DNA of 64,000 nucleotides, from the NCBI GenBank assembly GCA_029948255.1, contig JALIZF010001828.1, positions 186,001 to 250,000 on the forward strand. The letters are read 5' to 3'. This document shows, one piece after another, positions 3,344 to 63,763 of this stretch. Source of the DNA: Telmatactis stephensoni (lineage: Eukaryota; Cnidaria; Anthozoa; Actiniaria; Isophelliidae). Numbering within the stretch: position 1 is the first letter of the stretch; every line of letters begins with the position of its first letter. The position numbers and the translations under genes are program-made. The notes under the pieces are model-generated. The model was not told the origin of the DNA, made no database searches, and saw nothing but the letters and a program-made list of their open reading frames with translations.

Positions 3344-4373
3344 TCAAAGCGGCTTACATATACCTTTAGCTTTTGTCTTGCATGGATTTCCTATTTGGGT
3401 GGTAGTAAAGGTGTAGAGAAATGGGTTAATGGAAGAGTTGATTGGAAGCACAAATACTGCAAGCCACGCATACACTTGTCTAGAAGGATCGTTGAAGATT
3501 CCAGATAGAGAGAGCGCACTGATCACAATAACAGGCATCCAGCAAAGGAAGTCAGTCAGGACGATGAATACAATTCTCTTTGAAAGAGAGGAATCTTTGT
3601 TGGTTGCAGTAGAACGAACAGCGCGAGATGATCTCCTGACCTTTATGAATATTGCGACATATGCTACAAGCATAAAGGAAAAGGCAATAAAGTTGAATAC
3701 CAGGAATATCGCAACCGAATATTCCCATCCGGCAGGGAGATTTGATGAAAGTTGCACTGGTAAACACACCGATGACCTTCCAAAGAAACCAAAGTCCTGG
3801 TCGTTAATGTCTATGAAGTAATCCAAACCCCATATTGGAGCCGATGAGATAACCAAGCCAATTACCCATAAACTTGCGCAGATTATCGTCGCTCCTCGTC
3901 GAGTGATTCTTTTAGCGGTGAATGGAAACACAATACAAAGCAGCCTGTCATAGGTGACGACTACGAGCATGGCCACCGATACCTCGCTTGAGAGCATGGA
4001 TATCATTCCTGTTATTCTACAGCCATTTCCCGATCTCCAACCCTCATCGTGTTTAAAGTACTCTCCCTTCCAAATGAGATCTGCAAATGCGATGGTGGTC
4101 AGGAAAACACCCATCAGAAAATCGGCTACTGCGAGATTTGTCAAGAGGAAAGACTGTGTATCATTTTCTACTTTTTTACCGCGCAGCCTTAGACCAATGG
4201 CCAGCAGATTGCCAAGAAGAGCACTAATCCCAAGGATCCAAATGCATACTTTGAGAACTTTATTTTTTATCAGGTCGTCACAGCTAGAGAATTCGTTTGC
4301 TTCTGATGCTTGGCAACGAAGTCCGGGAATTACTTTTTCGGCATAGCAGCAATGGATGAATTTATCCAGTTTT
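3344..4373 (-). CDS. Last exon: LRR C-flank plus complete 7TM domain, relaxin-receptor/GRL101-like
   Basis: The acceptor AG is at 4374-4375 and the stop codon TGA at 3344-3346; the exon encodes 342 residues. Residues 1-35 are a Cys-rich LRR C-terminal flank (Cys at 8, 9, 20 and 31). TM1 is near 41-63 and carries ALLGNLL. TM2 starts with TNLAVADFLMG. TM3 is preceded by GCRITG and ends in TYDRLLCIVFPF, so the DRY motif is DRL. TM6 carries DFLCWMPV, and TM7 carries FVLPINSSINPFLY. The ECL2 Cys (SVCLP) can pair with the TM3 Cys. The phrases SEVSV in TM3, DFLCW in TM6 and LPINS-NP-LYT in TM7 are the pattern of RXFP1/2 and snail GRL101 receptors (established family knowledge). The cytoplasmic tail is short, about 20 residues. 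The first base completes a codon from a phase-2 exon, as for every LRR exon upstream. The 10-kb gap to most LRR exons is filled with transposon debris. Confidence 0.93.

Positions 4374-63763: not shown

Follow-up and report, generated by a model that had tools for sequence, protein, structure and literature searches.

Animals as a rule encode their G-protein-coupled receptors (GPCRs) and their kinases as distinct proteins. The relaxin receptors RXFP1 and RXFP2 carry one N-terminal LDLa module that adjoins the leucine-rich repeats (LRR). Here, we describe a likely receptor gene on a 64,000-nucleotide stretch of the sea anemone Telmatactis stephensoni, referred to as the window (contig C119:186001-250000 of the species' own genome assembly, G000). 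Its predicted product is one of the LRR-containing GPCRs (LGRs), to which GRL101 also belongs. In the available parts of PMC8286064 and PMC6267866, GRL101 is defined by LDLa, LRR, and seven-transmembrane (7TM) domains, and the accessible text of PMC11863921 assigns it to type C2, with LDLa as the mark of type C. Cnidarian LGRs with several LDLa modules are labeled "GRL101" in an extract of PMC4079206, and in the portion available of PMC11521371 the name occurs in a tree legend only. Fusions of a GPCR with a kinase are described in excerpts of PMC12716839 from oomycetes, amoebozoans, choanoflagellates, and sponges but not from other metazoans. Among the papers that searches of the open-access literature listed, no title or abstract opening describes either a pseudokinase or a mosaic array in an LGR that is cnidarian or of the GRL101 type.

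On balance, we consider it reasonably probable that the window contains most exons of one type-C LGR gene, that its product would combine a mosaic adhesive ectodomain, LRRs, a 7TM domain, and a likely dead kinase tail, and that the receptor works by the mechanism proposed below. Taken separately, the predicted architecture including the tail is highly probable, and the functional reading as a whole is tentative. The pseudokinase tail is the novel part, and the mosaic ectodomain is not unique. Because database records already hold the sequences, the discovery is one of recognition and not of first sequencing.

Gene model and its homologs

The gene was rebuilt on the minus strand using a small gene finder based on splice sites and coding signal, with relaxed splice thresholds, after which the LRR, MAM, and PA14 exons were finished by hand. 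This gave 40 exons from 63763 to 3344, each preceded by AG and all but the last followed by GT. Their phases chain unbroken, and the joined frame comprises 2,561 residues with one stop (3344-3346). An initial annotation of this DNA had proposed about 44 phase-compatible minus-strand exons; the series, the GT-AG borders, and the phases were rederived, but the count was 40. Its assertion that MAM, lectin, LamG, F5/8, PA14, LDLa, CUB, LRR, and 7TM modules are joined was borne out, as the 2,561-residue frame holds all of them, with PA14 below its Pfam cut-off. The joined model scored above the cut-offs for MAM (272 bits, 4 stretches), LRR_8 (164.9), 7tm_1 (116.5), CUB (83.4), Ldl_recept_a (56.9, 2 stretches), Lectin_C (47.3), and Laminin_G_3 (39.2). 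The F5/8 module passed solely when scanned alone (27.9 versus 27.8 bits). PA14 (E = 0.11) and a second lectin (E = 0.095) were below the Pfam cut-offs, and their identity therefore rests on alignment to homologs.

With flanking DNA, the model grows to 52 exons, 41 of which lie in the window; it encodes 3,169 residues, and all internal exon borders follow the GT-AG rule. The ectodomain, previously put at about 2,200 residues, amounts in this model to 2,549 residues ahead of the 7TM exon, the start still lacking. Nor did the 5' limit at 63763 hold. Two further MAM modules, which match the N terminus of the Nematostella protein P0005 (LOC5504590), were found upstream of the window at about 66.8 to 64.1 kb and 98.4 to 97.2 kb (window coordinates), and, judged from these matches, the 5' end of the gene is outside the window.

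When the LRR-7TM part was used as query against the whole database, 202 proteins matched, 120 of which were listed; the counts below derive from these 120. MAM and 7tm_1 occurred in one protein, according to precomputed domains, in 19 anthozoan and 2 nemertean (Lineus) matches. The anthozoan carriers were from Oculina, Porites, Nematostella, Montipora, Stylophora, Acropora, and Actinia. The best database matches reached 52% identity across the LRR-7TM region, and the window exons mapped in order to P0005 in 20 blocks. The initial annotation had pointed to cnidarian proteins as a check of domain order, and in the database homologs the modules indeed follow broadly this order within a single chain. 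It had also regarded the mosaic receptor as a class unfamiliar from vertebrates; the architecture recurs in anthozoans and partly in bilaterian GRL101-like proteins.

C-terminal tail

From a phase-1 donor at 3364, at the end of the 7TM exon, six further exons were recognized. One of them, K1 (2870..2994, minus strand), lies in the window, and five were placed just outside it by the tail profile and the joined frame (C119:179540-184238, minus strand, corresponding to window coordinates -1762 to -6460). A search for a kinase tail inside the window only gave nothing significant; the tail was seen after the flanks had been added. In the flank, three exons matched the homolog profile (E = 1.8e-15, 2.7e-13, and 1.1e-4), and a fourth, the last of the tail, did so weakly. 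K1 and a small exon complete the tail, which is in phase with the 7TM exon and ends at a TAA at -6458 to -6460. The joined tail was compared with a profile of 14 homolog tails from which the window tail had been excluded and scored 150.5 bits over positions 2 to 251 of 259. Coding sequence thus appears to run on, and it probably continues past 3364 into a pseudokinase. The initial annotation had ended the gene at 3344, a stop that is probably reached by readthrough of the splice donor at 3364, as homologous exons run on past it.

The 14 homologs end with tails of 300 to 377 residues, for 10 of which a kinase Pfam domain was precomputed. Each of the three anthozoan tails that were scanned scored above the cut-off of a kinase family in Pfam (P0001, E = 4e-8; P0004, E = 3.6e-9; P0024, E = 3.5e-6), and the best-scoring family was PK_Tyr_Ser-Thr for P0001 and Pkinase for P0004. 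A search of solved structures with the P0001 tail produced weak kinase matches to 15 sequences (best E = 1.1e-4).

For the catalytic motifs (HRD, DFG, ATP-site Lys, and alpha-C Glu), we assume the meanings that they have in kinases generally. The window tail keeps the ATP-site Lys and the alpha-C Glu, its HRD triplet reads NNN, and its DFG reads DFS, so that the HRD and DFG aspartates of an active kinase are not both present. Among the 14 profile tails, all anthozoan, the HRD Asp is kept in two, the DFG Asp in none, and both in none. The tail, which the initial annotation had missed, is likely a catalytically inactive kinase.

Several observations argue against such a tail. The window tail is below the Pfam kinase cut-off (20.0 versus 23.1 bits), and its last exon alone scored E = 0.34 against the profile. 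Because the DFG Asp is retained in DFS, the reading of the domain as dead rests on the catalytic loop. The tail is missing from the gene models of 4 of the 19 anthozoan relatives, namely, P0005, whose model is cut inside the 7TM domain, and P0017, P0020, and P0021, whose tails are short. A fifth, P0007 from Nematostella, has part of the tail only (N-lobe).

If alternative 3' ends were used, a short-tailed receptor ending at stop 3344 and a pseudokinase-tailed isoform would both be made. Both frames are open and several homolog names contain isoform labels, but direct evidence for the short form in the species itself is lacking, and we regard this as unlikely. That the mosaic receptor ends at 3344 altogether, the kinase-like exons being a separate or vestigial neighbor, is more doubtful still. 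The in-frame stop soon after the NPxxY region would fit this view, as would the three short-tailed homologs. However, the tail is within one protein in 14 of the 19 anthozoan relatives and in part in P0007, donor 3364 and acceptor 2994 are both phase 1, and in a paralog from the same genome, matching tail exons follow the 7TM exon at a distance of no more than about 2.5 kb, with a K1-like motif recognized by eye beside that 7TM exon. The continuation into the tail thus remains the preferred reading of the 3' end.

To gauge how far the tail extends among relatives, the 120 listed proteins were scanned locally with the profile, with E values calculated for a set of 120; 14 of these proteins had built it. 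Of the remaining 106, 12 matched at an independent E value (i-E) of <1e-3. These were P0007 and eleven bilaterian proteins (P0050, P0051, P0057, P0062, P0065, P0072, P0076, P0081, P0088, P0105, and P0115), in which mostly the C-lobe matched. The other 94 fell short of the threshold, and many of them are LRR proteins that are not receptors of this type. A whole-database word-based search with the P0002 tail recovered only P0002 and P0001 from 2,467 candidates, which speaks against a wide spread within the reach of such a search. In P0050 (Glandiceps talaboti) as well as in P0105 (Dimorphilus gyrociliatus), the 7TM domain is followed by weak kinase Pfam matches; four scores were obtained, and a single one (P0105, PK_Tyr_Ser-Thr) was above its cut-off.

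The twelve matches outside the profile, eleven of them bilaterian and mostly in the C-lobe, suggest an old fusion without proving it. We lean toward the view that GPCR-pseudokinase fusions may form an ancient eumetazoan class, in which type-C LGRs of the GRL101 lineage would go back to a fusion of 7TM domain and kinase older than the split between cnidarians and bilaterians. Anthozoans would then have kept the whole, dead kinase together with a giant recognition ectodomain and multiplied the genes, and bilaterian GRL101 would have been left with a shrunken C-lobe tail.

Receptor type and gene family

The initial annotation had placed the receptor among relaxin-receptor-type LGRs, and its assignment to type C is supported by the RXFP1 match and by a tree. 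LRR_8 and 7tm_1 are found in one frame with eight 72-nt phase-2 LRR exons, as expected for an LGR. The best solved relative of the 7TM exon was human RXFP1 (E = 4e-49; TSHR, E = 3e-40). The tree comprised 49 rows, consisting of selected database matches, eight loci of T. stephensoni, RXFP1, and TSHR. TSHR and a Liolophura LGR5-like row split from the rest at 100/100; this separation of the 7TM domain from the TSHR/LGR5-like rows, together with LDLa modules in the ectodomain, characterizes type C. The eight own-species copies formed a 100/99 clade within an anthozoan clade (99/98). Most bilaterian rows fell into another group (15 rows, 89/89), with Glandiceps and Panulirus outside both. A single LDLa directly before the LRRs, as in RXFP1/2, is not seen; the LDLa modules are located at 44.4 to 43.9 kb, with MAM and CUB in between. 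Judged by these features, the receptor is a type-C LGR of the GRL101-like kind and not a relaxin receptor. Two aspects of the tree are less favorable to this placement: the anthozoan clade joins RXFP1 at 93/69 with a long RXFP1 branch (2.77), and the anthozoan clade includes a Pocillopora row named LGR5-like, whose branch is long.

In the assembly, the receptor family numbers at least 19 7TM exons (L001-L008 and others), among them those of the window gene and its second haplotype and several apparent allelic pairs. Because the eight own loci analyzed form one clade, a lineage-specific expansion is likely. Membership in an expanded family raises the question of whether the window gene is a decaying pseudogene copy. 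Its MAM4 and pentraxin modules are degenerate, and the LamG exon of the haplotig C418 (L020), which represents the second haplotype, has a 1-nt gap relative to the window, reflecting either an assembly error or a null allele. An assembly error is plausible because the gap lies about 1.2 kb or less from the end of the C418 contig. The frame is open over 2,561 residues in the window, or 3,169 when the flanks are added, and internal boundaries are GT-AG throughout, which makes decay very improbable. A gene with an intact reading frame is therefore preferred.

Continuity across the two long introns

The initial annotation had singled out two introns, MAM5-CUB (34333 to 28872 in the present model) and CUB-linker (28516 to 23239), as the junctions where its one-gene model might fail. 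Haplotig C418 is 98.4 to 99.7% identical to the window in five aligned blocks of >900 bases; 40 exons were located in it, 39 of them identical to those of the window. An insert of about 5.02 kb (28894..33914) inside the MAM5-CUB intron is absent from the haplotig, where this intron measures 438 bp. The insert, which has inverted ends, CACTGTGC... (CACTG-type), and a 3-bp duplication of the target, contains no stop-to-stop frame of >106 codons; it is likely a DNA transposon present on one haplotype only. In the haplotig, the CUB-linker intron remains long (5,120 bp), and the CUB-to-LRR junction therefore rests on the paralog, in which about 0.7 kb separates the CUB match from the LRRNT match, and on homologous proteins. 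Both introns thus look ordinary, each being spanned by an allele or by a paralog as well as by database proteins from other species.

The paralog, on a 40-kb stretch of C522, matched in the same order with 32 high-scoring segment pairs and 2,795 bits at E = 0.01, and its chain covered at least half of the length in 39 of the 52 modeled exons. Controls with the opposite strand and with the reversed protein gave no match at all against this stretch. The exons likely form one gene and one mRNA, a conclusion shared with the initial annotation and backed by the collinear paralog, the homologous proteins, and the haplotype. That at least two neighboring genes were chained, one for a secreted matrix protein with MAM/lectin/LDLa/CUB modules and another for an LRR-7TM receptor, is the least probable explanation: introns of about 5 to 10 kb separate some blocks, and phase-1 modules are frequent in modular genes, but separate genes at either junction are made unlikely by the short intron of the other haplotype, the close spacing in the paralog, and the 19 anthozoan proteins with MAM and 7tm_1 in one chain.

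Some details of the one-gene model do not agree with it as well. For thirteen of the 52 exons, the paralog chain at E = 0.01 spanned under half of the length, and two of these lie beyond the stretch compared; the undercovered exons include K1, K2b, the CUB-LRR linker, Z, MAM5c, and LRR1. No convincing signal-peptide exon was found in a search for one in the extended model. Exon 36387-36549 ("Q?") has no homology support and was kept to bridge the phase, and exon borders between MAM4 and the pentraxin-like module (approximately 36.3 to 37.9 kb) are unsettled.

Exon-by-exon arrangement

All modules are on the minus strand and are given from the N-terminal side. MAM1 is encoded by exons a (63641..63763, phase 1-1, matching P0005 at q359-380), b (62846..63105, phase 1-0, supported by Pfam MAM, P0005, and the paralog), and c (61761..61854, phase 0-1, supported by Pfam MAM and the paralog), which together scored E = 3.9e-22 for MAM. 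Five stretches follow that are mostly single phase 1-1 exons. Exon X (61199..61579, phase 1-1) is a cysteine-containing module with no Pfam family that the paralog chain covers. C-type lectin 1 (60432..60827, phase 1-1) scored E = 3.2e-12 for Lectin_C, and the laminin-G/pentraxin-like module (58634..59254, phase 1-1) scored E = 1e-11 for Laminin_G_3 and 105 bits against P0005. The divergent C-type lectin 2 (57783..58157, phase 1-1), the sub-cut-off Lectin_C match mentioned above, aligns to P0005 and the paralog. The F5/8 type C-like module has two exons (56313-56419 and 55952-56240; F5_F8_type_C_2) and is likewise supported by P0005 and the paralog.

The PA14-like module comprises three exons (55535-55740, 53709-53860, and 52912-53072) recognized through alignments to P0005, P0010, and the paralog. 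A candidate exon at 54063-54143 was discarded, as it sits in an inverted repeat and the PA14 frame closes without it. In the cysteine-rich segment after PA14 (52438-52515, 49655-49818, and 48879-48945), the paralog covers the middle exon, and the outer two are less than half covered at E = 0.01. MAM2 (48567-48665, 45714-45970, and 44983-45091) scored E = 1.7e-15 and is matched by P0005 and the paralog. LDLa exon 1 (44186-44410) encodes two repeats (Ldl_recept_a, E = 9.9e-20, 2 stretches). A third repeat, recognized by homology only, is assigned to LDLa exon 2 (43878-43991), which aligns to P0001, P0002, P0005, and the paralog. The short cysteine-containing linker exon Z (43232..43318, phase 1-1) resembles, by eye, the post-LDLa residues of P0002 and is uncovered by the paralog at E = 0.01.

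MAM3 (41432-41563, 40551-40801, and 39934-40033) is the best MAM stretch, its middle exon being 57 to 61% identical to P0001, P0002, and P0005. The degenerate MAM4 exon (37686-37876) weakly matched the paralog MAM4 (E = 0.002), and a pentraxin-like remnant near 36755-36892 weakly matched the paralog pentraxin stretch (E = 0.004), both in a 4.6-kb target. A poly-serine "exon" at 36784-37131 was discarded as a simple repeat, and the phase-bridging filler exon (36387-36549) comes next. In the region from 35400 to 37900, the C522 paralog keeps recognizable pentraxin pieces where the window copy is degenerate, a possible module loss. MAM5 was modeled with two exons (35171-35424 and 34333-34438; MAM E = 3.4e-10; P0005 q2441-2516), the second of which is less than half covered by the paralog. 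The CUB module (28516..28872, phase 1-1) scored E = 1.3e-25 and is matched by P0005 and the paralog.

The linker exon (23198-23239) is not covered by the paralog, and the LRRNT-like cap (22897-23017) is. The eight LRR exons are located at 22354-22425, 21066-21137, 18826-18897, 15209-15280, 14835-14906, 14619-14690, 14367-14438, and 4702-4773. A candidate exon at 8765-8851 was discarded; it lacks the LRR pattern, and LRR7 is joined to the 4702-4773 exon without it. The LGR hinge and 7TM domain share one exon (3364..4373, with the predicted donor at 3364; 7tm_1 E = 3.3e-35), which is in phase with K1, an exon that is weak alone (E = 0.65) and in frame in the joined tail. Long tandem arrays of 8- to 10-base units were observed in introns at about 13572-14250, 22509-22900, and 50117-50750. 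Upstream of the window, a Gag-like frame with CCHC zinc knuckles was noticed at about 95028-95910 (C119, locus L014), inside the predicted 31-kb intron that separates the first two MAM modules of the extended gene.

Proposed mechanism and significance

In the mechanism that we tentatively propose, the array of MAM, lectin, LamG, F5/8, PA14, LDLa, and CUB modules would anchor the receptor on glycans, on matrix, or on the surface of a particle and concentrate a ligand. The LRR region may bind a peptide ligand in the fashion of relaxin receptors, and the seven-helix domain would switch a G protein. The pseudokinase tail could serve as a docking or allosteric platform that recruits signaling partners and not as an enzyme. 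A family found in anemones and corals that can be cultivated, and in traces among bilaterian receptors of the GRL101-like kind, would offer an experimental system for the role of a kinase-fold tail in a GPCR. With an expanded family that carries the lectin/MAM/LamG/PA14 array, one could also test directly whether surfaces of matrix, self, or microbes are read by a GPCR.

Comparison with known systems

RXFP1 and RXFP2, of type C1, have LDLa and LRR in common with the window gene, and RXFP1 is its best solved 7TM match. In contrast to them, LDLa is far from the LRRs here, with MAM and CUB between, and a kinase-like tail follows the 7TM domain. The kinase-type domain after the 7TM domain is reminiscent of the GPCR-TK and GPCR-TKL/K proteins of choanoflagellates and sponges (PMC12716839). 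However, the 7TM domain here is that of an LGR and the kinase is without catalytic residues, so that the likeness is one of architecture.

GRL101 and other type C2 LGRs (Lymnaea, bilaterian) share multiple LDLa modules, LRR, and 7TM with the window gene, and public annotation names two of its Stylophora homologs "GRL101." Unlike the gene described here, GRL101 as presented in the available parts of PMC8286064 and PMC6267866 is without a MAM/lectin/LamG/F5-8/PA14/CUB array or a pseudokinase, and the anthozoan rows form a clade of their own apart from the bilaterian group. Even so, similarity to the pseudokinase profile extends to the tails of the eleven bilaterian proteins. Also close are the homologs from Nematostella (P0005), Oculina, Porites, Stylophora, Acropora, Montipora, and Actinia, recorded as uncharacterized, hypothetical, or "GRL101," which have the same overall module order and vary in module gains, such as WSC and an extra F5/8 in P0010.
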